Shown here piece after piece: positions 20,997-40,105 of a DNA stretch of 64,000 nt. Location: the NCBI RefSeq assembly GCF_026011795.1, contig NZ_BRVS01000001.1:372001-436000 (forward strand), in the 5' to 3' direction. This stretch comes from Arthrobacter mangrovi (GTDB lineage Bacteria; Actinomycetota; Actinomycetes; Actinomycetales; Micrococcaceae). Below the pieces are notes generated by a model. It was not told the origin of the DNA, searched no databases, and worked only from the letters and a program-made list of their open reading frames with translations. Within the stretch, counting starts at the first letter, position 1. Every line of letters begins with the position of its first letter. The translations under genes were made by a program, and so were the position numbers.

Positions 20997-22142
20997 ATGA
21001 CTACAGGGCGTGTGCCCACCGGAGGTCCTGTAACAAAAATGAGCGGCTTATCTCGCGCCCCATACGAACGCGATATCTCAGCGTCTTCCATAACCATGCT
21101 CGATCTGTTCGCCGGTGCTGGCGGACTGACGAACGGCTTTTATGCCGCCGATGACCGCTTCGTGACCAAGCGAGCCGTTGAGTTTGATGCTGCGGCTGCT
21201 GCGTCTTTTGCCGCGACATACGGACAGAAAGTATACGCAGGCCCAATTCAGGACTGGCTTCATGAAGAGCAAACGCCCCAGGTCGACATCGTCATTGGTG
21301 GCCCACCATGCCAGGGGTTTTCCCTCCTTGGGAAACGCGATGAGAATGATGAACGCAATCAGCTTTGGCAGCAATACGCGCAGACGCTAGCCAAAGCCCA
21401 ACCCAAGTACTTTGTCGTCGAAAACGTTGCGACATTCGTTAAGTCCAAGCAGCTTCTCGACTTTCACGAGGCCACCTCACCTACTGGCCTGCTAGCGGAT
21501 TACGCCTTTGAGTGGCAGATCCTTAATGCTGCTGATTTCGGCGCGCCTCAAGCTCGTAAGCGGGCTATTCTCATCGGCCATCGGAGAGACATGGAGAAAC
21601 CCGTCTTTCCGACGCCGACTCACGTTGGTAGACACCGGACAGTCCGTGACGCGCTTGAAGGTATAGATTTCCTGCCTGACGGCCGAGAACTCGGGCCTGC
21701 CCGAATCCAGACTGCCACTCGTCCTATGCCTGGCCCCTTTAGGACGATAGACCTTCATCTAGACCGGGATTACAGAGCCATTTCCCTAAAGCGATTCGCC
21801 GCGATCCCTCCCGGAGGGAACCGGATGGACCTGCCGGATGACCTCAAAGCCACATGCTGGTTGGGTCACTTGTCAGGTTCTGGCGATGTAATGGGACGAC
21901 TTCACTGGGACAAACCTTCTGTAACTATACGGACGGAGTTCTTTAAGCCAGAGAAGGGGCGCTATTTGCACCCAGAGGCAGACAGGGCCATTACCCACCT
22001 AGAGGCAGCTCGTTTGCAAGGTTTCCATGATGAACACCGTTGGGTTGGATCAAAAACCGCGATCGCAAAGCAAATAGGAAACGCTGTACCACGTTGGCTG
22101 GGTCAAGCTATTGCCAGTAGTTTGCTCCCTTATGTGAAATAA
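20997..22142 (+). CDS. DNA (cytosine-5) methyltransferase, DISARM DrmMII-like
   Basis: A 381-residue C5-cytosine methyltransferase. Motif I is LDLFAGAGGLTNGF (about 35-48), the catalytic PCQGFS loop has Cys105, motif VI is ENV (142-144), motif VIII is QARKRAILIG, and the C-terminal motif X is KQIGNAVP. A target-recognition region lies between about 240 and 330. Such enzymes mark host DNA, and DISARM class 2 uses one as its modification component. ATG at 20997 lacks a clear ribosome site. ATG at 21039 has GGAGG about 13 bases upstream and would remove 14 residues. A 113-bp gap separates it from the helicase genes, so it may be transcribed separately. Confidence 0.88.
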   Translation: MTTGRVPTGGPVTKMSGLSRAPYERDISASSITMLDLFAGAGGLTNGFYAADDRFVTKRAVEFDAAAAASFAATYGQKVYAGPIQDWLHEEQTPQVDIVIGGPPCQGFSLLGKRDENDERNQLWQQYAQTLAKAQPKYFVVENVATFVKSKQLLDFHEATSPTGLLADYAFEWQILNAADFGAPQARKRAILIGHRRDMEKPVFPTPTHVGRHRTVRDALEGIDFLPDGRELGPARIQTATRPMPGPFRTIDLHLDRDYRAISLKRFAAIPPGGNRMDLPDDLKATCWLGHLSGSGDVMGRLHWDKPSVTIRTEFFKPEKGRYLHPEADRAITHLEAARLQGFHDEHRWVGSKTAIAKQIGNAVPRWLGQAIASSLLPYVK

Positions 22143-22255
22143 TCCTTTAAGCTGTTGGGGTAGGCGTACCCCGCCCCACATGTGAATCTTGTCAGTGACG
22201 ACGAGTAGATATGTAGGGACAGCAGACGCTGAAGTCGTAAAGGTTGGGGGCAACC

Positions 22256-25200
22256 ATGCTAGAGCAATGGGCCGGAATTGACGGAACGATAGCAAAGTTT
22301 ATTCGTACAGACGCACAATCCGCTCTTGAGGCGTATCGCGTGCGGCCGGATCTGGTGCGCGAACACAGCAACATAGAGCAATCCATCTCGCAAAGCGGAT
22401 ACGGCCGGAAGCAGCTCAATGAACTAATCCAGAATGCGGCAGACGCGATGCGTGGCCACGGCGGACGTATCGCAGTCGTACTCACAAACGACGCCTTGTA
22501 TTGCGCCAACGAAGGAGCGCCGTTCACTAGCAGCGGCTATCAGACACTAATGCTGTCCCACTCCTCGGACAAGCGCGATGACCAAATCGGACGATTCGGC
22601 TTGGGCTTCAAATCCGTGCTGCAGGTTTCGGACACGCCGCAGATCTTCAGTCGCTCCGGCTCGGTTTCCTGGAGCAGGCAACGGAGCCAGCAGTTGCTGG
22701 AATCCGTCTTACCAGGGTTGGTCAACTATCCCGTCCTGCGTCTCGCCGAACCGATTGACGCTAGCGCCGAGGCGGAGAATGACAACGAGCTTGCCTCCCT
22801 CATGTCATGGGCTACGACGGTAGTCCGACTTCCCCTGCGTGGCAACGCGTCGTGGCTACATGACGAACTTGCATCGTTCCCACATCATTTCCTGCTTTTC
22901 TCCCCTGACATTCATGAACTGCGGTTTGAGGACCGTGTAAAGCAAATATCAACTGCCTGGACGTCGGAACGGACCGGCCAGCGAATCACTCTCTCCAGCG
23001 AGGGAGCAACCGAGGAATGGCTACTGCTTGAGCACGTGCACACGGTCTCGGAGACCGCGGCCGCAGATGCGGGTAGCATCTTTGCACGCCGTGAAGTCCC
23101 GGTAAGCTGGGCTGTGCCGCTGGATATCAAGTCCAGGCGCCAACTTGGCACCTTCTGGAATTACTTCCCGACCCAGCACAGGACTTCGCTCCGCGGCATT
23201 ATCAATGCGGCCTTCAAAATGAACGAAGACCGGGTCAGCATGTTGGAAACTCTCTACAACAGGGAAATACTGACTCAGGCCGTTCCTCGGATGGTCGCTG
23301 GCGCCATGCCGTTTCTGAGTACAGGTAACGACCCAGCAGCCCATTTCGATGTTCTTCCGTCGCGCGACCGAGAAACGCGAAGCTGGGCAGATGGCGTTAT
23401 TTACGATCCAATAATGACTGTATTGGCTTCCGTTCCATTCCTACCGGACCGATCCGGAACGCTTCAGACTATTACCAGCATGCGTATCCAGCCGGAGCTG
23501 ACCGAAGCCATGGCAATCGAGGCTATGTGGGAAGCGGCCGTTGGAGCAGATCGACCTTGGGTTCACAAGAGCGCTTTTGCCACTAAGGAGCGCAACGGTC
23601 TCCTCAATCGTCTATTGTTCAAAGCCAACAAGAAGCGCGCCTCAGTCACCGAATGGATTGAGGAAGTTGTGCAGGAAGGCAGCCTGCAATCCTACGAAAA
23701 CGCATTGCAAATCGCTGCCGAGATCGATCGCCGCCAACCTGACCACATTGCTGAGATGCGCCGAAGCCGCATCGTCTTGATGGCCGACGGAAGAATTGAA
23801 GCACCGATCGCAGGTCGGCTCGACTTGCCCACGGACAGCGACGAAGCCGGCGAGACCCTTGTCGCCTACGAGCTCCTGCACTACGGTCAATGCGCTGTGT
23901 ACCTCCGAGCACTCGGGCTCGAGGTCCTCGACGGCATAGGCAAGATCAACAAACTTGCCCGGGCAGTCGCTGACGACTACTCGGATCCGGAGATGGCGCA
24001 ATCGCTTTGGCGCGTTGCGCGCACCTTTAATGCGCCAGACGTGATCGAAGCACTGGGGAAATACACAGAGGCTTCGAAAATCCTCGTCAGGAGGCAAAGC
24101 GGATCGTGGAAGCCGCTGGGCACCGCCTGGCTGTCCGGACCGTACCTCAGCCATGAGCGTCCTGAGGATGCCCCGCTCGTCATAGATCCCCAGTTCCATG
24201 CACGAGATCTGGACCTTTTCCAGCGTCTCGGAATTCGCAAGACCCTGCCTGAACACACCTCGAACAAAGGCGATGCCTACGAATCTTGGAAAAATGCGGA
24301 AGCTCAGCGGCTTTCCAAAGAGTCGGAACAGAGTCCCGAACCCGTCGCGGCTGCTTCCATCAATTTCAATGTTGTACCGCACACCGAGCGGCTCCAGGAG
24401 CTCAGCATAGCCTCGGCTCAATCCCGGGAAACGATCACACGTGAGTTGTTGCGACGCACGCAGTATCGGGCTGTTGCCAAGTTTTCGTCGGCGTACAAGC
24501 GGGACGTCCCCCTCGAAGGTCCGGACCTTTGGTGGGTGAGGAACTTCGGTGTTTTCAATACGCCCTTGGGTTGGGTTGAAACCAAGTACTGCAGCGGAGA
24601 TCCCGATGGGTTCCCGTCGGCCTTCCTGCCCTACCCCGGGGCGGAGGAAGCTGCAGCCCTAGCATTGCCGGATTCCGTTGACGCGATCCAGTGGCAGTAT
24701 GTCGTTCCACTCGCAGAAAAGACGTTGTGCCTCGACGACGTCCACGTCCTGTATGGGCTCATGGCCAAGCATGGAGCGAGGGCACCCAAGGAGCTCCTCG
24801 TAGCCTATGGCCGAGGTCAGACGACGCGCTATCGCTCAGAAGACGTTAACGTTGCCGAGGATGCCAGCAGCCATGAATATCTGTCTGCCAGCGGTCGCCA
24901 CGCATCAATCTACACCAGGCACAGCGAACTGAACGCAGCACTGGCCGAACACTGGGGCCTCACTCCGGTGTCCGTAGAGTTGCAAACCGAACTGCGAACA
25001 GTCGAAAGTAAGGATTCGGATCGTCAACCGGCGAACGAGCTCTTTCCGTTCATTGACCGTGCAAGCAAGGTCAAGCGGTCGACACTCTGTATCCCTTGCA
25101 CCTCGATCGAACGCGTTCGACGTAACAATGTCGATGACCAGAAGGTCGTTGAAAGCCTCCAAATCGTTCGGGATAAGGACAGTGGTTACGTCTACTATGA

Positions 25201-26947
25201 CGAGTCCCTGACCCGTAAAAAACTACTGCAAGGGCTTCTGGACGCCTTCGACGAAACACGCTCCTTACAGGCGATCGAAGACAAGCGTAAGTCGCTGATT
25301 GCCGACGCCAAGCAAAAAGCGCTCGTCGATAAAATCCGTGACGCAGACGGCCCGGCGCAGAAACTAATGGCGCTAGTCGGTCGGGAAGCCCTCGAAAGTT
25401 TGATCCCGCAGCCAGTGCAAGCGATGCTTCAGATGCGCCAGCTCACTCTGACTGATCAGTTGATCTTCGATGTGGTCAGCAACCTCTACGGCACAAACCT
25501 GATGCAGCGGCTCGAACCAGCGCTCAATGAGACCGGCATCGGCAACGTGGAGATCTTCCAGGGAAAGACGAGTGATGCCCGCGCTTTCCTGCGCGAACTC
25601 GGATTCTCGCCGGAGCTGATCAACGAGCCATCGGTCCGCAAGCCTCAACGCGAGGAGATCGTCGGGCCGGTGAGGCTTAAGGAACTTCACGATTACCAAA
25701 AATCGACTTCCCAGAAACTCAAAGCCCTTCTGTCGGGAACTACGGAGCATCACCGCGGTGTTGTCCAGCTGCCCACAGGGGCCGGCAAGACACGGGTCGC
25801 GGCGCAAAGCGTCATCGAACATCTGTCTGTGCAGGCAAAGCCGCAGCTTGTTGTATGGATTGCCCACTCTGAGGAGCTATGCGAACAGGCCATCGAATCA
25901 TGGTCGAACGTATGGCAGGCTGTTGGGCCGGAAGGCGAGCGGATGGCCGTCAGCCGTTTATGGGGTGGAAACTCAGCTCAACAAGAGAACACCCGCCTTC
26001 ACCTCGTCGTCGCCACCATTCAAACGTTGTCGCGGATTGCTGACGATGCCGACCGTGGCGAACCTCGCGGTCTTAAATACTCGTGGCTAAGCAACCCGGA
26101 TATCGTGATTATCGACGAAGCCCACGGAGCCATCGCCACGAGCTACACGGGTGTATTGAAGTGGATGAAGCGTTCGGCCCGCAATTCTGCCGGTCCTCTG
26201 ATCGGCCTGTCGGCCACCCCCTATCGGGGCACCAATGAGATTGAAACCGAGAGGCTGGTCAACCGCTTTGAAGCCAACCTCATCGAACCAAATGAGTTCT
26301 CCGCTGAGGATGCCCATGAGTATCTTCAAGGAATCGACGTGCTGGCCAGGGTACGGCACGAAGTGCTTGAAGGCATTAAGCTGACGCAGCGCAACACGGC
26401 CTCGGAGCGGAATCTGCCGGAAGACGATGCTCGCAACGCAATGCTCGATCAGCGGGTTGACCTGGATCTCGTTGCAGCGAGTGCAGAGCGGAACGAAAGA
26501 ATTCTGGCGCATCTAAGCGATAACCAGGATTCGATCGCGCACGCTCTCGTATTCGCTGCATCTGTAGACCACGCGGAAGCTCTGGCAGCAGTACTCAGCG
26601 CGACAGGCATTCCCGCTGCCTCGATCTCCGGCAGGACCGGTTCCGCGCATCGGCGCAGCCTGATCGAGCGTTTCCGCAAGGGCGAGCTCAAGGTCCTGAC
26701 CAACTTCGACGTCCTCAGCCAGGGCTTTGACGCCCCCAAGGTAGACGCCGTTTACCTGTGCCGGCCGACGTTCTCTCCCAATAAGTACATTCAAATGGTT
26801 GGACGAGGCCTTCGCGGACCGGCCAACGGCGGCAGCGAGGAAGTGTTAGTCGTAAACATTCAGGACAACCTGGACCAATTCGGCACCGCATTGGCCTACA
26901 CCGAATTCGATTACCTGTGGAACCGTACGGAGTCCTATGCAGTCTGA
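22256..26947 (+). CDS. GHKL (sacsin/Hsp90-like) ATPase fused to SF2 helicase
   Basis: A 1,563-residue protein. The N-terminus is a Bergerat-fold ATPase: N-box NELIQNAADA (about 54-63), CANEGAPF and GRFGLGFKS (about 112-120), as in sacsin-type proteins. A middle region of roughly 1,000 residues has no motif I recognise. The C-terminal 420 residues form an SF2 helicase: Walker A QLPTGAGKT (about 1170), IIDEAHGA (about 1285), GLSATPYRG (about 1317), and motifs V and VI in NFDVLSQGFDAP and QMVGRGLRG (about 1513). It overlaps the next gene by 11 bases. It occupies the place of DrmE or DrmD in known DISARM operons but does not resemble DrmE in architecture as I know it. The ATG at 22256 follows AGGTTGGGGG. 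Confidence 0.85.
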   Translation: MLEQWAGIDGTIAKFIRTDAQSALEAYRVRPDLVREHSNIEQSISQSGYGRKQLNELIQNAADAMRGHGGRIAVVLTNDALYCANEGAPFTSSGYQTLMLSHSSDKRDDQIGRFGLGFKSVLQVSDTPQIFSRSGSVSWSRQRSQQLLESVLPGLVNYPVLRLAEPIDASAEAENDNELASLMSWATTVVRLPLRGNASWLHDELASFPHHFLLFSPDIHELRFEDRVKQISTAWTSERTGQRITLSSEGATEEWLLLEHVHTVSETAAADAGSIFARREVPVSWAVPLDIKSRRQLGTFWNYFPTQHRTSLRGIINAAFKMNEDRVSMLETLYNREILTQAVPRMVAGAMPFLSTGNDPAAHFDVLPSRDRETRSWADGVIYDPIMTVLASVPFLPDRSGTLQTITSMRIQPELTEAMAIEAMWEAAVGADRPWVHKSAFATKERNGLLNRLLFKANKKRASVTEWIEEVVQEGSLQSYENALQIAAEIDRRQPDHIAEMRRSRIVLMADGRIEAPIAGRLDLPTDSDEAGETLVAYELLHYGQCAVYLRALGLEVLDGIGKINKLARAVADDYSDPEMAQSLWRVARTFNAPDVIEALGKYTEASKILVRRQSGSWKPLGTAWLSGPYLSHERPEDAPLVIDPQFHARDLDLFQRLGIRKTLPEHTSNKGDAYESWKNAEAQRLSKESEQSPEPVAAASINFNVVPHTERLQELSIASAQSRETITRELLRRTQYRAVAKFSSAYKRDVPLEGPDLWWVRNFGVFNTPLGWVETKYCSGDPDGFPSAFLPYPGAEEAAALALPDSVDAIQWQYVVPLAEKTLCLDDVHVLYGLMAKHGARAPKELLVAYGRGQTTRYRSEDVNVAEDASSHEYLSASGRHASIYTRHSELNAALAEHWGLTPVSVELQTELRTVESKDSDRQPANELFPFIDRASKVKRSTLCIPCTSIERVRRNNVDDQKVVESLQIVRDKDSGYVYYDESLTRKKLLQGLLDAFDETRSLQAIEDKRKSLIADAKQKALVDKIRDADGPAQKLMALVGREALESLIPQPVQAMLQMRQLTLTDQLIFDVVSNLYGTNLMQRLEPALNETGIGNVEIFQGKTSDARAFLRELGFSPELINEPSVRKPQREEIVGPVRLKELHDYQKSTSQKLKALLSGTTEHHRGVVQLPTGAGKTRVAAQSVIEHLSVQAKPQLVVWIAHSEELCEQAIESWSNVWQAVGPEGERMAVSRLWGGNSAQQENTRLHLVVATIQTLSRIADDADRGEPRGLKYSWLSNPDIVIIDEAHGAIATSYTGVLKWMKRSARNSAGPLIGLSATPYRGTNEIETERLVNRFEANLIEPNEFSAEDAHEYLQGIDVLARVRHEVLEGIKLTQRNTASERNLPEDDARNAMLDQRVDLDLVAASAERNERILAHLSDNQDSIAHALVFAASVDHAEALAAVLSATGIPAASISGRTGSAHRRSLIERFRKGELKVLTNFDVLSQGFDAPKVDAVYLCRPTFSPNKYIQMVGRGLRGPANGGSEEVLVVNIQDNLDQFGTALAYTEFDYLWNRTESYAV

Positions 26948-28757
26948 AATTGAGCTGGATCCAAGCCAGCAGGACGTAGCCCACGCAGCGCCCGAAGAGC
27001 GACGATTCGTGGTCGCTGCGGCTGGCCAGGGCAAGACCGAGGTACTGCTGGAACGTATCCGTTCCTTGAGGGCCGACGGGCTGAATCCGGCAGATGAAGT
27101 GCTAGTACTCAGCTTTTCCCGGGCAGCGGTCGAAACGGCACGTCGCCGTTCTCTGCAACAGGGGCTCGACGGCGTACTCATCTTGACGTTCGATGCGCTG
27201 GCTGCCCGTCTGCTGCTGGACGGCGCCACAGATGCCAATCCGCTGGCCGGCAGTTTTGAACAACGGATTAGGCGGGCCACCGAGCTCGTACGGGACGGGG
27301 ACCTTCCTCCCTTGCTGGAGCCGGTACGTCACATTCTCATCGATGAAGCACAGGACGTCGTCGGGGACCGTGCCGAACTGGTTCTGGCGATCTTTGATGC
27401 CCTTGGCGATGACCTAGGCTTCACAGTGCTGGGTGACCCGCTGCAGGGCATCTATGACTTCCAGCTCGACGAGTCAGTCTCACAGATGACGTCCTCCGAG
27501 TTCAGACGACGTCTCTTTGATGACTACGCTCCAGAGCTCGTGCAGCTGGAGGGCCATTATCGGGCGACCAGCAGCCAGATGAGGTCGTTGATCGATATAG
27601 CGGGCAGGATTCGGCCGAGCGACGGCGACGTGGAGGTTGTGGAGAGCGCCCACGAAGTTTTGGACCGGTTCCGACGCAGCATCACAAGCAGCAACTTTTT
27701 GGATGAAGCAGGTGTCTTAGAGCCGGACGACGGTGATACTACAGCCGTTCTTACTTCAACGAACTACGAGGTCTTGATTGCCAGTGAGCTGTTGTGGAAT
27801 GAGGGAATCAGCCATGTTGTCCGCCGCAGAAGCCAGGACATGCGCGTTGCTCCGTGGGTGCATACCGTTCTTCATAACCTTGAAGCACGGTCCTATCCGG
27901 AGAAGGTAATTCTCGACAAACTGTCAGCGCTAGGTGACGAGTCCGTCGAGGACCGATGGAGGGATCTCAAGACGGCAGAAGGTGATTTCCGCTCGCACAG
28001 CTCGCTCAATGTCGCCTTGTTGGGCCAACGCCTGAGGCATCTGTCCGTCCCTGTCTCGCTGACTGTCAGCGACCATCACGCATTGACAGTTTCCACTGTA
28101 CACCGGTCCAAAGGCTTGGAGTTCACCAACGTCATCTATTTGCCGCCTGGACCGAAGGCGCCAGCGGGGCAGCGAACCTGGCCGACGCTTAGGCAAAAGT
28201 ATGTTGCTTTGAGCCGAGCTCGTGAGCAGCTCATCTCTTCCGGGTTTCCCAAGGGTGCCACAAAGGCGTGTAAGACCTTGGGGACTAGCAATCGCTGGAG
28301 CGAGCTGCGCTTTTATGGCGGACGCTCGAATACAGCGCGGATGGAATTCCTGAATGCAGACATTGACGATCAGCTGCCCTTCGGACGTTCAGTCCAGGAA
28401 GCTCTGGAGGTGCAGTTGCGCCTAAGCGAACAAGACGTCATCGGCACACCAATTCACGGAGTCCTGGATGAGTCGAGTGTGCAAGATGGCAGCGCGGCGA
28501 GATACTTCCTCTTCGACGAGGCGGGCAATGCCGTCGGCCGTACGGCAGAAGGATTTGGCTGGGACCTCAGGAGAGCGTTCCGTCTCGGCCGGAAGTGGAA
28601 CTGGCCCGAGAGCTTCTTGGGTGCCCGCATCACCTCGGTGGAATGCGCGACGGGAAACCCTCAGGAAACCATGGATGCCAGCATTGGAGCCTCCGGTATG
28701 TGGCTGGTTCCCAGGTTGACAGGCTTGATTCGACCCATTTGGAAGAAAGAGCAGTGA
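26937..28757 (+). CDS. Compact UvrD/Rep-like SF1 helicase
   Basis: A 606-residue SF1 ATPase. Walker A is AAAGQGKTE (about 27-35), Walker B is LIDEAQD (134-140), a GDPLQGIYDF motif III follows, and motifs V/VI are TVSTVHRSKGLEFTNVIYLPP and YVALSRAREQL. It is shorter than UvrD (about 720) and has no recognisable nuclease domain. The last 150 residues are unassigned. The start lies inside the 3' end of the GHKL-SF2 gene (11-base overlap) and the stop overlaps drmA (TGATG), so it is made in step with both. A role in unwinding or translocating on invading DNA is inferred. Confidence 0.82.
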   Translation: MQSEIELDPSQQDVAHAAPEERRFVVAAAGQGKTEVLLERIRSLRADGLNPADEVLVLSFSRAAVETARRRSLQQGLDGVLILTFDALAARLLLDGATDANPLAGSFEQRIRRATELVRDGDLPPLLEPVRHILIDEAQDVVGDRAELVLAIFDALGDDLGFTVLGDPLQGIYDFQLDESVSQMTSSEFRRRLFDDYAPELVQLEGHYRATSSQMRSLIDIAGRIRPSDGDVEVVESAHEVLDRFRRSITSSNFLDEAGVLEPDDGDTTAVLTSTNYEVLIASELLWNEGISHVVRRRSQDMRVAPWVHTVLHNLEARSYPEKVILDKLSALGDESVEDRWRDLKTAEGDFRSHSSLNVALLGQRLRHLSVPVSLTVSDHHALTVSTVHRSKGLEFTNVIYLPPGPKAPAGQRTWPTLRQKYVALSRAREQLISSGFPKGATKACKTLGTSNRWSELRFYGGRSNTARMEFLNADIDDQLPFGRSVQEALEVQLRLSEQDVIGTPIHGVLDESSVQDGSAARYFLFDEAGNAVGRTAEGFGWDLRRAFRLGRKWNWPESFLGARITSVECATGNPQETMDASIGASGMWLVPRLTGLIRPIWKKEQ

Positions 28758-31700
28758 TGGAAACCCTCGACTCAAAATATGCCTTTCGCCGTGAAATGAT
28801 TGACCGGCTCAAGACGGATCTCTTCGGGCCGGGATCCCAGGATGAAGTGATCAACGAACGACCGCTGGAACGCTACGTGACCGGCATCCTCTGGCCGGCG
28901 GCGGACGAGTCTGTCGAAGAGGTTCCGGATGACCCAGAGTCAGTTGCGGCAGCTAACGGAGAGGCCGCACCGGATAGCCCGGTAGCCAACGCTCGTCTTG
29001 CCTTCCCCAGCAGTATCGGGCTCACAGTTGCCGTCGACCTTTCCCTGACCAACGAGCTCATCGTCAGGCCTCGCGCGGCCCGCTATGAACCGGCCGAGAA
29101 TGACGCGTTGGAAACGGGCAAACGGATGCTAAGCCCGGATTGGCGTCGGATCGAACTCGAAGAACGGCCTATCACGGTTCCTCTGAAAACCGGTGCTTCC
29201 ACACGCAAAGTGGATGAAGGACTTGAACTATATACCTTAGTACGTCCGCGGCAGGACGGCGTTTCCTCGGTGACGCTTGTACTGCGGAATCGGAAGCCCA
29301 AACCGCCTACCGGCACGGACCGCGATATCGCCTGTTGGTTCCAGGTTGGCCTCACCGTCGAAAGCCCGGACTTCTCGTTGACTGATCGGTCCAAACTTCG
29401 AACCACGGTTTCAAATGACGCAGATCTGGCTTCGGCCGAGCTCATCTACCGCGAGCACATGATCTTTGCCGCCGGACACGGTTGTGCCGTAACCGTTGAC
29501 GACCAAGACATTGACGAGGCGAAGTGCCGACGTGTCTCGACCACGTTTGTACCAACCGTCGATGTCCATCGTTCAAAGGCAGGAAGCAGTGCTGCAAACC
29601 TGCGGCTCGGTTTCCTCGGCTCGGCCCCGCGCGAAGAGGTCCTGCAGCAGCTCGAAGCCCTTGCCTCCGACTACGAAGGGTGGATCCGGTCCAAGACGGC
29701 GTCAATCGATGCTCCCGACACGGGCGTCCCAGATCATCTCCGTAAGGTGGCGCAAGACCACATGGACGATGCGAGCAAGGCGCTGTCCAGAATCCGCAAC
29801 GGCATCCAAACCCTGCGCGATTCCGATGAAGCCTTCGAGGCATTCCAGCTAGCCAACCAGGCCATGCACATGCAGCGCTCCCGCCAGGACTGGGTGCGCA
29901 GCGGCCGGGCCAAGGACTTCGGGTTGGAAGACAAGCAGGCCTGGCGGCCGTTCCAGCTTGCCTTCATCCTCATCAATCTGCCGTCGGTTACAGATGGGAA
30001 CCACAAGGAACGTGACGTTGCCGATCTGCTCTGGTTTCCCACCGGCGGGGGCAAGACCGAGGCCTATCTTGGTCTCATCGCGTACCTGATCCTGCTTAGG
30101 CGGCTGCGCGACCCTGGTGCCAAGGGGGTGGCCGTCATCATGCGTTACACCTTACGCCTGCTCACCATCCAGCAGTTCGAACGAGCAGCCATGCTGATCT
30201 GCTCCCTGGAATCTGTTCGCATCGCAAGTGATGGGCGTCTAGGCAACGAAGCTTTCGGCATCGGCCTCTGGGTTGGCTCCGGCGCTACTCCGAACAACAT
30301 CAAAGACGCCAAGGCCAACCTCAACAAACTGATGCGCGGCGACAATGTGGTCGAGGGCAACCCCTGCCAGATTGAAGCATGCCCATGGTGCGGGAGCCGC
30401 CTCCGGCCCGAGAACTACGTTGTATACAAGACCCCAATGGACCAGATGAAGGTCCGCTGCCCGAATGACGAGTGCGATTTCCGTGAAGGCCTTCCGGTTC
30501 ACATTGTAGATACCGACGTATACCGGGAACGGCCGGAACTGGTCATCGGCACTGTCGACAAGTTTGCGCGTATGGCTTGGAATGGCGAAATTTCAACCAT
30601 GTTCGGCCGGCTGGACAAAAATGACCATGGTCCGGATCTGATTATCCAGGACGAACTCCACCTCATTTCCGGCCCCCTCGGTTCCACGGTCGGGCTGTTC
30701 GAGACGGCGGTCGATCTCGCAGCAGGCGGCCGCCTGCGACTGAACGAATCCTCCAATGGTCAACGGCGTCCTAAAATCATCGCCTCGACGGCGACGATCA
30801 GGCGGGCAGGAGACCAGATTCGCTCGGTCTTCAACCGTGAATCGGAGTTGTTTCCCCCGCCGGGACTCAGCCCCGACGACTCGTTCTTCTCGGAGAAGGC
30901 TCCTGCCGATGAACTAGGTACCCGCCAATACGTCGGCGTTATGGCGGCAGGCACCAGCCATGCCACGCTCATGGTGAGGACCTATGCCTCGCTCCTTCAT
31001 TCGGCCATGGTTGTTGAGTCAACGGAGGAGGACCGCGACCCGTACTGGACTCTTATCGGATACTTCAACAGCCTGCGCGTGCTCGGCTCCGCCCACCTTC
31101 AGGTCTACGACGACGTCGCTGCACGGCTCCGGCTTCTGGCGCACCGCGAGGGACGGGAGAACGCACGGGAGGTTCAGCTGTCAGAGTTGTCCAGCCGCGT
31201 CGAAAACAACCTGATACCCGCCGCCCTTAAGGCGCTGGAACAGCGTCTTGGTGGACAGCTCACACCGCAAGACGTAGTGCTTGCAACGAACATGATTTCA
31301 GTCGGCCTCGACGTCGACCGGCTTGGACTAATGACGGTCATGGGACAGCCCCAGTCCAGTGCCGAGTATATCCAGGCCACCAGCCGGGTGGGGCGCAAGC
31401 ATCCGGGGTTGGTCGTGACCATCTTCAATTCGGCAAAAACCCGTGACCGCTCTCACTTCGAAGGATTCACCGACTACCACGGAGCCCTCTACAGGGCTGT
31501 CGAAGCCACGAGCGCCACCCCCTTCGCAGCCCGCTCCCGCGACCGGGCGCTTCATGCGATGTTCGTCTCCGCCTTGCGTATGGTGGCCCCTGAGCTGCGG
31601 TCGAACACCGACGCCAGTAGCGCCCGCGATGCCTCCGCCGTCATTGACCAGGTGCGCAACGTGGTTCTGGACCGTGTCAGGAAGGTTGATGAGCGTGAGC

Positions 31701-31984
31701 TCGCGGCGACAGGGAACGAGCTGGAAACCCTTCTCACCACATGGCGCACCGCGATCAACAACAATGACCAGCTGGTGTACGACAACCGCAGGAACCCCCA
31801 AGGTGCCTTGTTGGTGAACGCTACAGATGCCCTCGATGACCCGGAATTTGCCTACTCCACGGCGTCAGTGCCGTGGCCCACGCCATCGAGCATGCGGGAC
31901 GTCGACGCCGAAACAACCCTGCGCCCCTCCCGCATGCGCAAAACCGCTACTGAACCGGGATTCCAGCGAAAGGACGGCAACTGA
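28757..31984 (+). CDS. drmA: DISARM helicase DrmA
   Basis: A 1,075-residue SF2-type helicase with the DrmA layout. An N-terminal non-catalytic half of about 400 residues precedes Walker A WFPTGGGKTEAYLG, a zinc ribbon (CPWCG and CPNDEC), the DEAD-box variant IIQDELHL, SATIRR, and the C-terminal motifs NMISVGLDVDRLG and YIQATSRVGR. DrmA and DrmB form the conserved DISARM core that loads on phage DNA. Start and end are coupled by TGATG junctions to the SF1 helicase and drmB. Confidence 0.87.
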   Translation: METLDSKYAFRREMIDRLKTDLFGPGSQDEVINERPLERYVTGILWPAADESVEEVPDDPESVAAANGEAAPDSPVANARLAFPSSIGLTVAVDLSLTNELIVRPRAARYEPAENDALETGKRMLSPDWRRIELEERPITVPLKTGASTRKVDEGLELYTLVRPRQDGVSSVTLVLRNRKPKPPTGTDRDIACWFQVGLTVESPDFSLTDRSKLRTTVSNDADLASAELIYREHMIFAAGHGCAVTVDDQDIDEAKCRRVSTTFVPTVDVHRSKAGSSAANLRLGFLGSAPREEVLQQLEALASDYEGWIRSKTASIDAPDTGVPDHLRKVAQDHMDDASKALSRIRNGIQTLRDSDEAFEAFQLANQAMHMQRSRQDWVRSGRAKDFGLEDKQAWRPFQLAFILINLPSVTDGNHKERDVADLLWFPTGGGKTEAYLGLIAYLILLRRLRDPGAKGVAVIMRYTLRLLTIQQFERAAMLICSLESVRIASDGRLGNEAFGIGLWVGSGATPNNIKDAKANLNKLMRGDNVVEGNPCQIEACPWCGSRLRPENYVVYKTPMDQMKVRCPNDECDFREGLPVHIVDTDVYRERPELVIGTVDKFARMAWNGEISTMFGRLDKNDHGPDLIIQDELHLISGPLGSTVGLFETAVDLAAGGRLRLNESSNGQRRPKIIASTATIRRAGDQIRSVFNRESELFPPPGLSPDDSFFSEKAPADELGTRQYVGVMAAGTSHATLMVRTYASLLHSAMVVESTEEDRDPYWTLIGYFNSLRVLGSAHLQVYDDVAARLRLLAHREGRENAREVQLSELSSRVENNLIPAALKALEQRLGGQLTPQDVVLATNMISVGLDVDRLGLMTVMGQPQSSAEYIQATSRVGRKHPGLVVTIFNSAKTRDRSHFEGFTDYHGALYRAVEATSATPFAARSRDRALHAMFVSALRMVAPELRSNTDASSARDASAVIDQVRNVVLDRVRKVDERELAATGNELETLLTTWRTAINNNDQLVYDNRRNPQGALLVNATDALDDPEFAYSTASVPWPTPSSMRDVDAETTLRPSRMRKTATEPGFQRKDGN

Positions 31985-34056
31985 TGGCCCGGACGAACTA
32001 TGCGGCCCGTCGTGCCCAGCTCATTTCCACCTTCGGCGTCGGAAGCCTCTTTCCCGCCGAAAACAACAGCTTCATGATCACGAGCACTGACCAGTGGGAC
32101 GAGAAGCGGCTCAAGCGGGTTTCCGAACCCCGGCTGGCCAGAAACCTCAGGGTCAATGAGCTGTGTCTTCCTCCGTCAGGGAAGAGCGGACACATCCCAG
32201 TGGTGCGTTTCCCGGACATGCTGGTCTGCCCACGCTGCAACCGGCTGGGGAACCTCAGGGAGCTCAAGTCCCGTTACGACGACCCGGTCTGCGGCCTTTG
32301 CTCCAAGAAAGGCGAGCTGGCACCCTCACGTTTCGTCGTCGCCTGCGAGAACGGGCATCTGGATGATTTCCCCTACGCATACTGGGTCCACAGCTACAAT
32401 CCGGAAGACCGCGAAAACCATAAGCTGAGCCTGATCTCCGAGGGGCGGACGTCATCGCTCGCCGACATCATCGTTCGTTGTTCCTGCGGCAAGGCACGTT
32501 CAATGGCCGATGCCTTCAACCCCCTTATGCTCAAGGAGATGCGCTGCGGAGGCAACCGGCCGTGGCTGGGCTGGGGTTACCGCGAGAAGGGCTGTGACAA
32601 GCAGCCCAAGACGGTGCAGCGCGGTGCCTCTAACGTGTGGTTCCCCGCAGTACGGTCCGCCATCTCCATCCCGCCGTACTCGGAGTTCCTCAGCCGGCTC
32701 GTGACGCAGCGGGCGCCTCAGCTCTCCAACCCAAAGATCCTCGAACCGGTCGCGGAGTTCCTGCTTGAAGACATCGTCAAGGAATTCCAGGGGCGGTTCT
32801 CCCTTAAGGAACTTCGGTCAGAGATCGAACGCCAGTTCCACGGAGGCGAAGAGGACGAACTGAGCGAGAAGGAACTGCGCGAGCAGGAATTCCTGGCCTT
32901 GATGAACGGCCGCCAGGACAACCCGGACTCCGAGTTTGTGGCCGAGGTGATGTCTGTGCCTGAGAAACATTGCGCTTGGATTCAGGCCGTCCGGAAGGTA
33001 ACGCGCCTCAGGGAAGTTAGGGCGCTGTACGGGTTCAGCAGGTTGTTTCCCCGTGAACAAAATCCCGAGGCCAAGCTCTCACCGCTGTACCCGGAAGATA
33101 ATGTCCAGCACTGGCTGCCGGCGATTGAAACGCTCGGCGAGGGCCTTTTCATTGCCCTGGACAGGGAACAGGTCGACGCATGGGCCGCGACCAAGTTCGC
33201 GCGGTCCCGCTATGAGATTCTGAAACGCAATGCCGATCAGGCCGCGGCCGCACGTAATACAACACCGGTCCCTGTCGACATTGTCCAGGTTCTCCTCCAT
33301 ACCCTTTCCCACATGGTCATCGACCAATTGGCACTGGATGCTGGCTATCCAGCGTCGTCAATCCGGGAACGCATCTACATCAGCGAAGAACAGTGCGGGG
33401 TTCTCCTGTACACGGCCACAGCGGATTCCGCAGGCAGCCTGGGCGGCATCGCTGCCCAGGCACACGCCGACCGTCTCGGAGCGGCCCTCTCCGAGGGGAT
33501 CGAACGGACCTCATGGTGCTCGGCAGACCCCGTTTGCATAGAGTCCCAGGGCTCAGGAACCGACGCGCGCAATTTGGCGGCTTGCCACTGTTGCGTGCTG
33601 TTGCCTGAAACGAGCTGTGAACTCTTCAACAGTGAACTGGATCGTGCCTGTCTGTTCGGCATTCAAGGCCAGGAAGCACAAGGGTTCTTTGCGTGGGCTG
33701 AGAGCTCAGGACACCGGCCCCAGACAGGTGACCAGGCGGAAGAAACGGGGATTGTGGTGCCTCCGGCAATCGAAGACAGCAAATGGGAGAGCATCTATCT
33801 GGGTGAACCGAAACTTCGCGAACTGATTGAGGAGATCGCCGACGCGGACGTTCCTGTAGCTGAATGGGGTCAGGATGCTGGCCTTGAGAACCAGTGGCAG
33901 ATAGACCTGTCCTGGCGCAGTGAATACGTGGCTGTATTGATTGACAAGAACGCCGAACGTGACGAGTGGCTCGAAGATCAAGGGTGGAACGTCTTCCACC
34001 TCGACGATTATGCGCCGAGCGACCTGGCACACCGCATTAGCCAGGATGTCTACTAA
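31984..34056 (+). CDS. drmB: DISARM protein DrmB (DUF1998)
   Basis: A 690-residue protein. The N-terminus has FGVGSLFPAEN followed by zinc-binding cysteine pairs (CPRCNRLG, CGLCSKKG, CENGHLDDFPY). The C-terminal DUF1998 region has LLHTLSHMVIDQLALDAGY, ISEEQCGVLLYT, DSAGSLGG and a cysteine cluster (CHCCVLLPETSC). The last roughly 100 residues include VLIDKNAERDEWLEDQGW, reminiscent of a restriction-like alpha/beta tail, though this is uncertain. DrmB partners DrmA in all DISARM types. It ends at a strong terminator, and no drmC (phospholipase-D nuclease) gene follows. Confidence 0.87.
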   Translation: MARTNYAARRAQLISTFGVGSLFPAENNSFMITSTDQWDEKRLKRVSEPRLARNLRVNELCLPPSGKSGHIPVVRFPDMLVCPRCNRLGNLRELKSRYDDPVCGLCSKKGELAPSRFVVACENGHLDDFPYAYWVHSYNPEDRENHKLSLISEGRTSSLADIIVRCSCGKARSMADAFNPLMLKEMRCGGNRPWLGWGYREKGCDKQPKTVQRGASNVWFPAVRSAISIPPYSEFLSRLVTQRAPQLSNPKILEPVAEFLLEDIVKEFQGRFSLKELRSEIERQFHGGEEDELSEKELREQEFLALMNGRQDNPDSEFVAEVMSVPEKHCAWIQAVRKVTRLREVRALYGFSRLFPREQNPEAKLSPLYPEDNVQHWLPAIETLGEGLFIALDREQVDAWAATKFARSRYEILKRNADQAAAARNTTPVPVDIVQVLLHTLSHMVIDQLALDAGYPASSIRERIYISEEQCGVLLYTATADSAGSLGGIAAQAHADRLGAALSEGIERTSWCSADPVCIESQGSGTDARNLAACHCCVLLPETSCELFNSELDRACLFGIQGQEAQGFFAWAESSGHRPQTGDQAEETGIVVPPAIEDSKWESIYLGEPKLRELIEEIADADVPVAEWGQDAGLENQWQIDLSWRSEYVAVLIDKNAERDEWLEDQGWNVFHLDDYAPSDLAHRISQDVY

Positions 34057-34084
34057 GTTCCTTGCAGGCAGCCCCGAATGGACC

Positions 34085-34120
34085 GGGCCGGGACACCAAC
34101 CAACAGTGTCCCGGCCCCTT
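34085..34120. terminator. Bidirectional terminator between drmB and the convergent helicase
   Basis: A perfect 12-bp stem (GGGCCGGGACAC at 34085-34096 with 34106-34117) has a 9-base loop and is followed by CTTT. It lies 28 bases past the drmB stop and 59 bases past the stop of the opposing gene, so it can end both transcripts. Confidence 0.85.
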
Positions 34121-34178
34121 TCATCAATTTAGGTAGTATTCGCGCGTCATTGCATTATGTTCTCAGTGGCTGCCCCGA

Positions 34179-36437
34179 CTACTTCATACCAAGCAGCTCC
34201 GATGGCTTGCCGCTCCATGTCACTACAAGCCCATCTCGAGCCCTGGTCGCTGCTACATAGAGCAGGGACCGTTCCCGAAGCAGAGCATCCGCGCGCTCCG
34301 CTGGCGCCACATTACTGACTTGGTGCTTTGCCGGAAGCGCCTGGTCGGAGATGCCAAAGAGCACGACTCGTGTGAACTCCATGCCCTTCGAGCGGTGCAT
34401 TGTCATGACGGTTGGTATGCCAGGCTCGTCGCGGCCCACCGAGGCGGTTTTAGCGGTCAGCCCTCGTTCCTTGAGTCCGTCAACAACCTTTGCAACCTGA
34501 TAGTTTGCACGGACTAAGACCCCGACATTCTCCAGTGCCACGCCTTCGTCACGCCACTGGGTCAAGTAGTCTGCGAGGACGTCCAGTTCGTCTGCAAAGG
34601 AACCTGCGCTGCGCTCCTCAGGCAGTGGGCCGGTGCGCGCCGAAATATATCCGCTATCCGGCACCTTCCCACCTTCCATATCCGTCATGGCCGCCCCTGT
34701 CAGCAGTCGAACGGCGTAGTCAAGGTTTTGCTGTGTCGTCCGGTAATTGAGGGTCAGGCGGCGTGACCGACCCACGATGGCAATCCCAAAGCGTGACAGG
34801 GGTACTTTCTGCCCGTAGATCCGCTGCTGGGAGTCTTCTGCGATGAACAGATCGTCTGCATGTACATCCGCCAGTTCCCTGAGAAAGAGCCAGTGGCCGG
34901 CATGAAGGTCCTGCGACTCGTCCACGAGCACGTGGTCAGCCAAACATCGGCCTCCCAGCGCCGTACGTTGCCTGAGAACGGCAGTCGCCAGATGGGCAAG
35001 CTCCACGAAGGAACAGTTCATTTGGATACTGTTGTAGTTGCGGTAGGCGGCGATTATCGTCCAGATATCCAGGCGCTTCGAGCGGTTGAGGGCCGTTCCG
35101 CGGCCGGTGCGCGGCACCGTGAGATAGGCATCCTTCGAGCTGATGAAGTTTGGAAGCACGACGGTCTCATATTCCTGCTGGAGGAATGTGGCGTTGGCCA
35201 GCTCCGGTTCCAAGTTGTGGGTGACATCATTGATCGCCGCCTCCCACTGATGCCGGGCCAACGCGGCGTCGAGTACTTTGCCGGGGATAACGCTCTCAGT
35301 GCCGAAAACCTCTTTCATCGCCCGCCGCTGCTCTACATCAGTGGCGCCGTGCAGTACCCTACTGACGAGGGAGTCCACACCACCTATATAGATTCCGGGA
35401 TAGCCGGGAGCTGCCGACCGCGGGAGATCCGCGTCCAGCTTGCCGAGTCCCGTGGACAAAGAGTCTGCCAGCGTCGTGGTGTAGGTAGTCAGGACGATTC
35501 GTGACTGCGGTTCAGATAGGGCCAGCATCCTTGCCCTGTGGAGCAGCACGACAGTCTTACCGGTGCCGGCCCCGCCAGAGAGACGGAAGGAACCGTTGTA
35601 ACGGCGCTCCGCGTAGATGCGCTGTTCCGGGTGCAGGAAGGTGCGCCAAGCGTCGAAATCACCGCCCTCAATGACCTGCTTCAGTTCCTCGGGGTTGTCG
35701 CCCACGAAGGTGAACTGCATCTTCGTGGCCGGATGCTCGAGGGCCTTCCGAATCTTCTCTTCCTCGGACTCGTCGGGGTTGTCGACGTAGCCAGTGAGGG
35801 ACAGCTTTTCCTGGATCTCTGCTATGCATGTCCCCGCAGCCAATTCAAGCAGCGCTGTTGCCTGCCATTCCGGAGCTTCTGCCATTACGTCGAAAAGGTC
35901 TTCTTCGGACGACGCGGCAAATACGTGATCGACGATCTCGGCGTCAAGTCCGAGGTCCTTCACGAGGTCCGCCGCAACGAGCCCATAACCAATCAGTGGG
36001 TTCGACCACAGCTCTCCGGACGGTTCGCGCTTCTCGTCGCCGGCCTGCGAATCCTGCTCGCCAGCCTTCTTCTCTTTTTGCGGCGGAGTTGTAGTCACGG
36101 GGTCCGGCGTGGACTCGCGGATGACTTCCAGAACGCCATTGACCGAATTCACCTTGAGAACACTCGACCGGGCAATATTGATGGCCTCGTCGTGCGGCCA
36201 GGCTCCGTAGTAGAAGTAGTGCGGGATCGTTTCATAGAGCACCTTGAACAGCACGGCACGGTAGTTGAGGTCGATCCGCCCTGTGCGGACCCGGGGATCA
36301 GCCGGGGTGTGCATCGGCTCGATGTGAAGGCCAGGGGCGGTGTCATCCTTTTGGAGCTTTTCGAAGAAGGAATAGACCTTCGCCTTCATGGCGCCGTCGA
36401 TCTTGTCCTTCTGCTTAATCCATGTCACTAGTGCCAT
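34179..36437 (-). CDS. UvrD-like SF1 helicase with RelE/ParE-like N-terminal domain
   Basis: A 752-residue protein. Residues 1-95 (KAKVYSFFEKLQKDD, RTGRIDLNYRAVLFK, YFYYGAWPHDEAINIA) look like a RelE/ParE-type toxin fold. An acidic linker near 110-140 follows. The SF1 helicase begins near 270, with Walker A GGAGTGKT (about 287), VDESQDLHAGH (about 502), LNYRTTQQN, TMHRSKGMEFTRVVLFG and LYVAATRARDGL. Proteins of this type are often found in defence islands. It converges on drmB and has its own promoter region near 36440-36570. Whether the N-terminal domain cleaves RNA is unknown. Confidence 0.82.
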   Translation of the reverse strand: MALVTWIKQKDKIDGAMKAKVYSFFEKLQKDDTAPGLHIEPMHTPADPRVRTGRIDLNYRAVLFKVLYETIPHYFYYGAWPHDEAINIARSSVLKVNSVNGVLEVIRESTPDPVTTTPPQKEKKAGEQDSQAGDEKREPSGELWSNPLIGYGLVAADLVKDLGLDAEIVDHVFAASSEEDLFDVMAEAPEWQATALLELAAGTCIAEIQEKLSLTGYVDNPDESEEEKIRKALEHPATKMQFTFVGDNPEELKQVIEGGDFDAWRTFLHPEQRIYAERRYNGSFRLSGGAGTGKTVVLLHRARMLALSEPQSRIVLTTYTTTLADSLSTGLGKLDADLPRSAAPGYPGIYIGGVDSLVSRVLHGATDVEQRRAMKEVFGTESVIPGKVLDAALARHQWEAAINDVTHNLEPELANATFLQQEYETVVLPNFISSKDAYLTVPRTGRGTALNRSKRLDIWTIIAAYRNYNSIQMNCSFVELAHLATAVLRQRTALGGRCLADHVLVDESQDLHAGHWLFLRELADVHADDLFIAEDSQQRIYGQKVPLSRFGIAIVGRSRRLTLNYRTTQQNLDYAVRLLTGAAMTDMEGGKVPDSGYISARTGPLPEERSAGSFADELDVLADYLTQWRDEGVALENVGVLVRANYQVAKVVDGLKERGLTAKTASVGRDEPGIPTVMTMHRSKGMEFTRVVLFGISDQALPAKHQVSNVAPAERADALLRERSLLYVAATRARDGLVVTWSGKPSELLGMK

Positions 36438-36573
36438 GTCAGGCTCCCCCTATTGTGATACCACATCAGTCACGTATAAATGTGAGTCCTTCTGCTTCCG
36501 AAGGCGGTTTCTACGGCTAGTGCCTCCGCCTCACCTCGGGCCCGCCCGAGCGATTAGTTCCATTGGCGAACGG

Positions 36574-37419
36574 TCATACGGCACGCGGCCTTGCCTCAAA
36601 AAGTCTTGGTTCCAATGTGCAGGAATTATCGAGGGCACCCTGGATCGTGTATAGCTCCGGCTGTTTTGCGCCGAAACGAAAGACACGGTAGAGGTGGTAA
36701 CGCTCTGCCTCTTCTCGCGAAAACCGCACTTCGTTTATGCCCACTAAGAATGGCCATTCTCTAACTCGCCGGGTCGTCTTGACGGAAATATATCGTTCGC
36801 GCCCACCCACGTCGAAGGACAGGACGTCGTACCCCACGACGTGGGAATCAAATGGGGACATGCCCTCGACTCGCTCAGCCAGTCGATCTAGACCAAGGCT
36901 TCGGAGTCTTTGCTGCTCAAACTCGACGACCGCCAGTTTGCCAGCCTGCTTCAGACCCAGCTTTTCCGCTTCAATTTTCACGTAATCAAACGGCGCCGCG
37001 TTGCCCTCAACGATGTAGTCATCGACCTCGACGGTCGGCGCCTCCACTAACTTCAGGGCAGCGCAATCAGGAGAGTCCGGTATCGGTTCGTCAGCTACTT
37101 TCAGCATGAGCCCATGAAGATCAGAATCGTGCACCCAGCGTTGCACCACGGCTTCGCGCAGCGCACCTTGTACATTCGCCCTCGGTTTATACCCCTCTAT
37201 ATAGAAGGATTTAAGCCCCTGCAGAACTGCACTAATGTTGCAGTGCTTGAACTCAACAGCACCCTTGCTACGACCGGTTACCGCCTGCACCCGCCGGTTC
37301 TCTTCTGCCTTGTTATATTGCTTACCAGTCAATTCTTGACGGAGCATCCTGAAGTAGCTTTCCACAGTCACATCAATCTCATCGTGACTCCAGAAATGAC
37401 CGATTTCCCCCCTGTTCAT
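36574..37419 (-). CDS. DUF3883 (NOV C-terminal-like) domain protein
   Basis: A 281-residue protein whose last 110 residues match the DUF3883 pattern: GYDVLSFDVGGRERYISVKTT, then WPFLVGINEVRFSREEAERYHLYRVFRF. The Asp...Val-Lys arrangement resembles the core of PD-(D/E)XK nucleases, so DNA cleavage is plausible but not shown. The N-terminal half (about 1-130) has no motif I recognise. In plant NO VEIN and related bacterial proteins this domain is joined to a GHKL ATPase. Here the GHKL ATPase is a separate gene in the same island. The ATG at 37419 is preferred to the GTG one codon before it. Confidence 0.8.
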   Translation of the reverse strand: MNRGEIGHFWSHDEIDVTVESYFRMLRQELTGKQYNKAEENRRVQAVTGRSKGAVEFKHCNISAVLQGLKSFYIEGYKPRANVQGALREAVVQRWVHDSDLHGLMLKVADEPIPDSPDCAALKLVEAPTVEVDDYIVEGNAAPFDYVKIEAEKLGLKQAGKLAVVEFEQQRLRSLGLDRLAERVEGMSPFDSHVVGYDVLSFDVGGRERYISVKTTRRVREWPFLVGINEVRFSREEAERYHLYRVFRFGAKQPELYTIQGALDNSCTLEPRLFEARPRAV

Positions 37420-37871
37420 CACACCAGGCTACCTTGTCGTATGGCCGGGAAACGTAAATCCTCAGGGGGTCCAGCTGACAGCAGCAGGACGAAAATCCGT
37501 CGCCTCCCATCGAGCATCGAAATATGCGCATATTAGAGGACGGCCGCACCTGCTTTCGGCCAGCTAAAAGGGCTAACTATGAGTTTCGCCGGAAAACTGT
37601 CGGCACCCAAGCCTTGGATCTCGGCCGGGTCTCCGTCGGTAATTCCGTCGGTCGGGAGGAGGTCTGGTCCAGAAGCTGGCCGAGAATAGCGCCTATCAGA
37701 TCCTCGCCCAGGAGGATCTCTTGTACCGTGCAGGGTCGCGAAGGGTGAGTGCGCCGGTAAACAGGAGTAGAGCGAAAACGAGAACCGTTCTGATCACATA
37801 GCCACATGTGATCTTTGGCCTCGTTCCTGAGTGCAGACTGGAGTTGCTGCACAGAAACGAGCATACTGCTG
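37420..37871. other. Gene-poor spacer between the DUF3883 gene and the Excalibur/HNH gene
   Basis: No convincing gene was found in these 452 bases. Open frames of 74 codons (plus, from 37524) and 93-105 codons (minus, ending 37577) lack a ribosome site and any familiar motif. The spacer must contain the promoter of the DUF3883 gene. I see no strong hairpin or repeat. Confidence 0.5.
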
Positions 37872-38900: not shown

Positions 38901-38973
38901 TTTGTACCTTCGGTGGTGTCCTCCCACAACGCAAGCCGTTGCGGGAGGACCCGTCGAATTCGGGTTGAAGAGG

Positions 38974-39999: not shown

Positions 40000-40105
40000 G
40001 GTTTCCCCCAACGAGACATGATAAAGCGTTTATGTCGAGGGAATGGTATCAGCTGGAATGCAATTCGGCATAGAGGAAGCCGGATTGCGAGCAGGCTCGC
40101 TGGGA

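Follow-up and report, generated by a model that had tools for sequence, protein, structure and literature searches.

Here, we report a locus of Arthrobacter mangrovi in which DrmA and DrmB of the defence island system associated with restriction-modification (DISARM) are encoded together with a large fusion of a GHKL ATPase and a superfamily 2 helicase (GHKL-SF2) and with a superfamily 1 (SF1) helicase. The stretch analysed, hereafter the window, comprises 64,000 nucleotides (RefSeq assembly GCF_026011795.1, contig NZ_BRVS01000001.1, positions 372,001 to 436,000, forward strand), and all coordinates below refer to it. An initial annotation, made from the sequence without database searches, had described DrmA and DrmB as preceded by a cytosine-5 (C5) methyltransferase, a GHKL-SF2 fusion, and an SF1 helicase, the last four genes overlapping, and this layout is borne out. 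On the plus strand, the gene of the C5-cytosine DNA methyltransferase (20997–22142) is followed after a 113-base gap by four core genes, i.e., the GHKL (sacsin/HSP90-like)-SF2 (RadD-like) fusion (22256–26947), the SF1 (UvrD/GajB-like) helicase (26937–28757), the DrmA helicase (28757–31984), and DrmB (31984–34056), with overlaps of 11, 1, and 1 nt at the three junctions. The GHKL-SF2 open reading frame begins with a TTG at 22244, the likely start being the ATG at 22256; that of DrmA is open from 28595 with a likely ATG start at 28757. The four NTP-driven helicases that had been counted in the locus correspond to the SF2, SF1, and DrmA proteins of the operon and to a convergent UvrD-type helicase.

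Proteins of the operon

The plus-strand proteins were scanned with PADLOC and with the NCBIfam DISARM profiles, and both DrmA and DrmB were confirmed by the curated NCBIfam cut-offs: DrmA matches NF038325 with 1022.4 bits (cut-off 950), and the adjoining DrmB (DUF1998/MZB) matches NF038324 with 471.6 bits (cut-off 240). Both also match the solved DrmAB pair (7s9v_A, 1.5e-161; 7s9v_B, 2.4e-75). A class 1 DrmA has an N-terminal EVE-like domain and a trigger loop at residues 176–232, as described in passages of PMC12458937 and PMC9142583; the alignment of the window DrmA to Serratia DrmA starts at residue 211 of the Serratia protein, which indicates that the EVE-like domain and the larger part of the trigger loop are missing or shortened here. 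The equivalent of V1296, the proposed base contact of DrmA (same passages), is a valine in the window protein as well. Across the collected cassettes, an SMRxV-type motif is found in 84/84, and the DrmA Walker A motif is kept in 83/84.

The GHKL-SF2 protein is about 1,563 amino acids long. Its head matches the sacsin ATP-binding domain NF047352 (76.5 bits, cut-off 50), and its predicted model (mean predicted local distance difference test, pLDDT, of 85.2) retrieves HSP90 (5.8e-6), sacsin (2.1e-5), and MORC2 (1.0e-4) in Foldseek; the modelled head folds like the HSP90, sacsin, and MORC ATPases. The residues E57, N61, D64, G116, G118, and K120 are kept in at least 90% of 32 aligned rows. The SF2 tail is RadD-like, both by NF053632 (1e-31, 109.9 bits, below the equivalog cut-off of 720) and by profile comparison to RadD (6jde, 4.8e-37), and its motifs are kept in nearly all of the 84 cassettes (Walker A 82/84, DEAH 82/84, motif VI 83/84). 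Among 80 loci on putative viral contigs, only one covers most of GHKL-SF2, the other 79 matching amino acids 1117–1553 (the SF2 region) only; this full-length relative (L158:9965-14671) has 36% identity and lies on a 36.7 kb IMG/VR contig. Two arrangements with additional copies were seen: in locus L115 a complete cassette is followed by a second GHKL-SF2 copy, and in L144 a GHKL-SF2 gene faces a cassette whose SF1 helicase is of the NERD type.

The SF1 helicase contains PF00580 and PF13538 in Pfam and, in profile comparison, is close to PcrA (2e-33) and GajB (1.8e-21). Its C-terminal domain is conserved without any Pfam match, and its Walker A motif G.GK[TS] is kept in 84/84 cassettes. The retention of the ATP-site motifs in nearly all cassettes makes the four-gene set look like a working machine, as far as sequence conservation can indicate.

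The methyltransferase is identified by PF00145 (177.7 bits) and by the PCQ, ENV, and QxRxR motifs in its sequence. Among the PADLOC profiles DruM scores best (303.7 bits), followed by MTase_II (261.8 bits) and DrmMII (160.9 bits); DISARM has a linked methyltransferase (DrmMI or DrmMII), and a C5 enzyme is linked to DrmAB here, but DruM outscores DrmMII.

Recurrence and co-divergence of the four-gene core

An alignment of GHKL-SF2 (A1) was scanned against the collected genome contigs, and the best 79 of 509 relatives were kept, 78 from Actinomycetota and one from a metagenome-assembled genome of Holophagae. In 71 of the 79 loci, GHKL-SF2, an SF1 helicase (68 loci) or an NERD-SF1 helicase (three loci), DrmA, and DrmB are all on the same strand; the positional count by strict order is 69/79, its rule having missed L154 and the first L115 cassette. 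The eight incomplete loci include cassettes cut by contig ends (L137, L140, and L147), the NERD-type cassette of L144, truncated where the stored stretch ends, two loci with DrmAB close by on the opposite strand (L087 and L099), and two that hold a gene matching the RelE-UvrD model with no DrmAB within the stored stretch (L153 and L156). This synteny survey found the four-gene order again in other genera, so that the arrangement exceeds chance. In an even sample of the phylum, 7/396 genomes match A1, four of them over the full length; DrmA is adjacent in three of these four, and in the fourth (G473) it is about 29 kb off on the same contig. Within the own family, 14/197 genomes match GHKL-SF2, and the 13 besides the window are five SF1-type, five NERD-type, and three Mza-type loci; Pfam confirmed the NERD domain for L035 and L036, two loci of the NERD type.

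Parallel divergence was evaluated with 71 SF1-type cassettes, i.e., 76 minus five near-duplicates. The pairwise distances of GHKL-SF2, SF1, DrmA, and DrmB correlate at 0.941–0.981, and 0/500 permutations were as high. The methyltransferase served as the internal control, with correlations of 0.455 with GHKL and 0.419 with DrmA (the 18 loci of this set with a model match). In another set, of 39 loci, its r is about 0.28 with the GHKL head, 0.28 with the middle region, and 0.27 with SF2, showing no preference for any core gene; the idea that the methyltransferase is coupled to the GHKL middle as the target-recognition part was rejected, because these 39 loci give no region preference. Between L036 and L028, the methyltransferases are 84% identical and the GHKL middle regions 17% identical, and on this comparison the methyltransferase is seen to move between two GHKL classes. 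Judging from these distances, it looks weakly bound to the core and exchangeable.

Two DrmAB lineages

In a DrmA tree of 84 rows, the 32 GHKL+SF1 rows and three SF1-only rows form one clade (support 100), DISARM class 1 and four unlabelled rows form a second one (99), and nine GHKL+NERD rows form a third (99). An IQ-TREE analysis with 48 rows gave the identical three groups. A topology that unites the two GHKL classes in a single clade is rejected (approximately unbiased test, p-AU 0.0005; 45 rows, with the nested SF1-only loci L019, L053, and L087 left out), from which it follows that GHKL-SF2 accompanies, by DrmA phylogeny, two DrmAB lineages, the second one with an NERD-SF1 helicase. In this 45-row tree, GHKL+SF1 stands beside class 1 with a support of just 21. 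A separate clade is made up of four loci on alphaproteobacterial plasmids in which SF1 precedes DrmAB.

Several DrmAB contexts of other composition were observed along the way. In L024, L025, L055, L058, L060, and L062, an NERD-SF1 gene (by model) lies directly 5' of DrmA-DrmB with no GHKL nearby, which is a DrmAB context without drmC. On Azospirillum and Rhizobium plasmids (L020, L021, and L075), the order is SF1, DrmA, DrmB, and then an NERD-domain gene, i.e., both helicase kinds are around one DrmAB. A Tsukamurella plasmid (L019:9480-31165) encodes a C5-methyltransferase, a RelA/SpoT-domain protein, SF1, DrmA, and DrmB in this order, and after DrmB come a DEAD/DEAH helicase, a large methyltransferase-like gene, and a Zn-binding-domain gene, an order that recalls the DISARM-related arrays named ARMADA.

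A mosaic with an Mza-type operon

The block of methyltransferase and GHKL head at 21,087–25,296 (plus strand) is common to the window and to an Mza-type operon (L027) in another genome of the same genus, with 76.15% DNA identity over 4218 columns. At the protein level, the identity of the head to that of L027 is 93% for amino acids 1–500, 82% to 750, 74% to 900, 66% to 1000, 40% to 1050, and 12% beyond. The L027 head protein stops there, and the genes after it resemble those of an Arthrobacter plasmid that match MzaB (34% identity), MzaD (37%), and MzaC(Z1) (41%); from 25,647 onward the window matches the DrmAB relative L028 with 64–71% DNA identity. In a GHKL tree of 55 rows, the Mza-linked heads nest at two places within the Micrococcaceae DrmAB-linked heads, L027 grouping with the window (100) and L022, L033, and L034 grouping together (100); L064, which a script had labelled Mza, consists of an SF2 fragment only, sits on a long branch, and was given no weight. 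Compared in this way, the window operon is a mosaic, its head being shared with an Mza-type operon and its back-end being DrmAB. It offers a natural experiment, since two different back-ends follow a methyltransferase and a GHKL head that are almost alike, and it provides a link between DISARM and the MORC/paraMORC restriction operons; the GHKL ATPases of the latter are described in a passage of PMC2292703 as prokaryotic relatives of eukaryotic MORC proteins.

The nuclease question

The 120-residue C-terminal extension of DrmB (about 33694–34053, plus strand) was modelled with AlphaFold2 (pLDDT 77.7) and has the element order H-H-E-E-E-H-E-H, for which a PD-(D/E)xK-like topology is predicted. 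It is probably inactive. None of its Foldseek matches is significant (no E < 0.001), PvuRts1I at 0.11, mitoribosomal proteins, Vsr at 0.83, and an endonuclease-like protein at 1.1 being retrieved; the profile comparison to four Vsr proteins gives a probability of 1.7, and no conserved lysine was found in the aligned loci. The extension is present in the window and eight other loci (five DrmB proteins were not assessable by motif), and with so few loci it is not a general answer to the nuclease question. Neither the GHKL middle nor the SF1 C terminus nor the DrmB extension contains a nuclease recognised by Pfam, the extension giving one weak DUF match (E 0.089). In the NERD branch, the SF1 helicase itself carries the NERD domain.

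DrmC was equally not found: there is no PLDc_2 match on the window contig (contig 1), which includes the surroundings just outside these genes, and the matches of the own genome are on contigs 28, 8, and 26. An open reading frame with an HKD motif near DrmB was seen in 0/84 cassettes, a weak test in that the same expression finds just 4/11 class 1 loci. DrmC is reported as non-essential in a passage of PMC9142583, and it is in line with such a dispensable DrmC that the core, as read from profile searches, is without an obligatory known nuclease.

Comparison with named systems

The resemblance to DISARM lies in DrmA and DrmB, which exceed the curated cut-offs and adjoin each other in the usual order; a C5 methyltransferase is linked as in class 2, but with DruM as its best PADLOC profile. 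The window differs, however, by the absence of drmC, drmE, drmD, and an adenine methyltransferase and by the addition of GHKL-SF2 and SF1. DISARM class 2 is defined by DrmE, and a search of the own genome gave no DrmE_fam match with E<=1. As for class 1, neither the SNF2 helicase DrmD nor the adenine methyltransferase DrmMI was detected by Pfam among the nine island proteins, and the window DrmA falls in a separate clade. The initial view that the locus is DISARM-related with a non-canonical composition, with neither drmC nor drmE visible, is thus upheld by the curated DrmA and DrmB, the searches for drmC and drmE, and the conserved four-gene core.

A possible membership in ARMADA had also been raised. 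ARMADA is described in passages of PMC12458937 as the combination of a YprA helicase and genes resembling BrxHII and PglX, DUF1998 being fused to the helicase (OB-CON-DUF1998), and its type II ends with the RelE-UvrD helicase ArmD. The window has a YprA-family helicase among several helicases, and the nearby UvrD helicase may resemble ArmD; DrmA and DrmB, however, are separate genes instead of the fused YprA-OB-CON-DUF1998, and no BrxHII- or PglX-like gene was found by Pfam among the nine island proteins. Membership in ARMADA was rejected on these grounds.

With the Mza-type operon, the window has the 76% DNA-identical methyltransferase and GHKL head in common, but an SF2 tail, SF1, DrmA, and DrmB take the place of the Z1, MzaB, and MzaD genes; PADLOC and Pfam detected no MzaB GHKL, MzaC (Z1), or MzaD among the nine island proteins, and in L027 they follow the same head. 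The SF1- and NERD-DrmAB loci (L019–L021, L053, L055, L058, L060, L062, and L075) are alike in having SF1 or NERD-SF1 directly before DrmA-DrmB and differ in having no adjoining GHKL-SF2. TmtA is similar in two respects: its PADLOC profile matches the sacsin-like head (162 bits over amino acids 15–357), and its DUF3883-like end corresponds to what is a gene of its own, the DUF3883 gene, in the window. The head alone of our protein matches, however, with a RadD-like SF2 tail behind it.

A match of the whole gene order to a named system was looked for in the profile libraries (PADLOC in its 2023 release) and in the open-access literature; none was found, and no description of GHKL-SF2 with DrmAB was recognised in that literature. 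The best reading of these comparisons is that the locus represents an unnamed DISARM-related variant outside the named classes.

Interpretation of the locus

Three other explanations were considered. According to the first, the locus is a MORC/paraMORC restriction-modification system, kin to Mza, with a borrowed DrmAB, in which the GHKL head and the methyltransferase recognise the target and an unrecognised nuclease cuts. The methyltransferase and GHKL head are indeed followed by MzaB/MzaD/MzaC(Z1)-like genes in L027, L034, and the plasmid locus L022, operons of GHKL, SF2 helicase, methylase, and endonuclease are described in a passage of PMC2292703, and a PD-(D/E)xK-like fold is predicted at the DrmB end. 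The cutter, however, did not emerge from the Pfam search of the three candidate regions, the DrmB extension is confined to the window and eight loci (with the five DrmB proteins not assessable) and lacks a conserved lysine, and the methyltransferase is not specially coupled to either the head or the middle of GHKL; we consider this explanation unlikely.

The second explanation is an ordinary class 2 DISARM, with SF1 being an unrecognised drmE, GHKL-SF2 inserted as an accessory, and drmC lost; it appears to us very unlikely. The gene positions fit (methyltransferase, one or two genes, drmA, drmB), a Lactiplantibacillus plasmid (L070) has a C5-methyltransferase, an 801-amino acid gene, DrmA, and DrmB with no listed drmC, and a gene at the DrmE position of L078 matches DrmE_fam, albeit weakly (34.1 bits, cut-off 80). 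The SF1 protein itself, on the other hand, matches UvrD-type helicases and no DrmE model (among the PADLOC matches listed, the best 25 of 40 families, and in NCBIfam and DrmE_fam), and its profile probability against three DrmE-position proteins is 0.3, a reference set that is positional and in which just one protein matches the DrmE model, weakly; SF1 as drmE is unsupported by these comparisons, and DrmE_fam is missing from the own genome as stated above. An incidental insertion of GHKL-SF2 is opposed by the 71/79 loci with the full set, and the DrmA proteins of L070, L074, and L078 fall outside the DrmA clade of the window.

The least probable explanation, a DNA repair or plasmid-exclusion unit, could draw on the repair relatives of RadD-like, UvrD-like, and YprA-family helicases (MrfA, in a passage of PMC12458937), but DrmA and DrmB pass the DISARM cut-offs, the presence is patchy (4/396 genomes), the site is a variable low-GC island, and a methyltransferase and candidate-defence neighbours are linked.

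We favour, with moderate confidence, a DISARM-related defence unit with a fixed core of GHKL-SF2, SF1, DrmA, and DrmB, all of them NTP-driven or DNA-motor proteins; it is carried by the gene content, the ATPase motifs, the conserved order, the parallel divergence, the DrmA clade, and the mosaic make-up, and phage defence is its putative function. Some points weigh against it. The 79 loci were picked by similarity to the query, and the distance correlations are inflated by shared descent. In G473, GHKL-SF2 is about 29 kb away from SF1-DrmAB, and SF1-DrmAB occurs without GHKL nearby in L019 and L053, meaning that the link of GHKL to SF1-DrmAB is not absolute. The coupling of the methyltransferase to GHKL was tested and not seen (39 loci), and a motif-positive C5-methyltransferase is found within the stored stretch in just 29/79 loci, so that marking by methylation may not be general.

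Going further than this defence unit, and more tentatively, we propose that it could be a third DISARM class without an obligatory core nuclease, in which an HSP90/MORC-like clamp-motor fusion would replace DrmE and DrmC, and in which the methyltransferase-plus-clamp head would be a plug-in for two back-ends without other kinship, DrmAB and Mza/Z1, exchanged within one genus. In the favoured defence unit itself, the linked, exchangeable C5 methyltransferase would mark the host DNA, and DrmAB would load on phage DNA at single-stranded 5' ends as in DISARM, such ends being the reported DrmAB trigger (a passage of PMC9142583). The GHKL head may then close on the DNA as an ATP-driven clamp, like its MORC/HSP90 relatives, and the clamp possibly licenses the RadD-like SF2 motor and the SF1 motor. 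With SF1 joining the others, the DNA would be unwound, stripped, or held and its replication blocked, and host or accessory nucleases might finish it, NERD in the sister branch and the DUF3883 protein nearby being candidates for the cutter. A passage of PMC9142583 poses as an open question by what means DISARM attacks DNA when it needs no nuclease of its own; a natural DISARM relative without drmC and drmE, whose four co-diverging genes are kept across many genera, makes this question testable, i.e., which motors suffice and whether the clamp is the missing step.

Accessory genes and the variable site

Two minus-strand genes converge on the operon. The first (34179–36437) had been annotated as a RelE-UvrD helicase, of which the UvrD part is supported by PF13361 and PF00580, but an N-terminal RelE domain was found neither by Pfam (window protein and nine homologues) nor by the PDB sequence search; models of this helicase match in 14/79 loci, and we regard it as accessory. 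The second (36574–37422) is, as annotated, a DUF3883/NOV_C protein (PF13020, 57.5 bits; PADLOC PDC-S36, 282.3 bits), an accessory protein with a candidate nuclease fold, DUF3883 being described as a novel restriction endonuclease domain in a passage of PMC3710099. NOV_C/DUF3883 models match in 8/79 loci, near the core and not constantly.

Other neighbours were noted upstream of GHKL-SF2, where divergent genes occur mainly in Streptomyces: a helix-turn-helix protein of ~716 amino acids (34/79), a protein of ~330 (34/79), and one of ~331 (26/79). In one locus (L105:4944-8946), two of three divergent upstream genes match the PADLOC candidates PDC-M33A and PDC-M33C.

The locus lies in an island (20900–41340) delimited by a drop in GC content and by the end of flank homology. 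The GC content at 20–42 kb is 56–61%, compared with 63–72% in the surroundings; homology of the left flank to same-genus genomes ends at 20,899, and that of the right flank restarts at 41,340. No clean empty site was found in the relatives, in which the flanks are kept but not adjacent. In G062, two homologous flank genes are ~74 kb apart, from which the place of the locus looks like a variable site. At 37872–41233 (minus strand), the island also holds a GmrSD_C/Excalibur protein, an overlapping Excalibur open reading frame, and a DUF4236 protein, which look secreted or cell-surface, unlike the other island genes.

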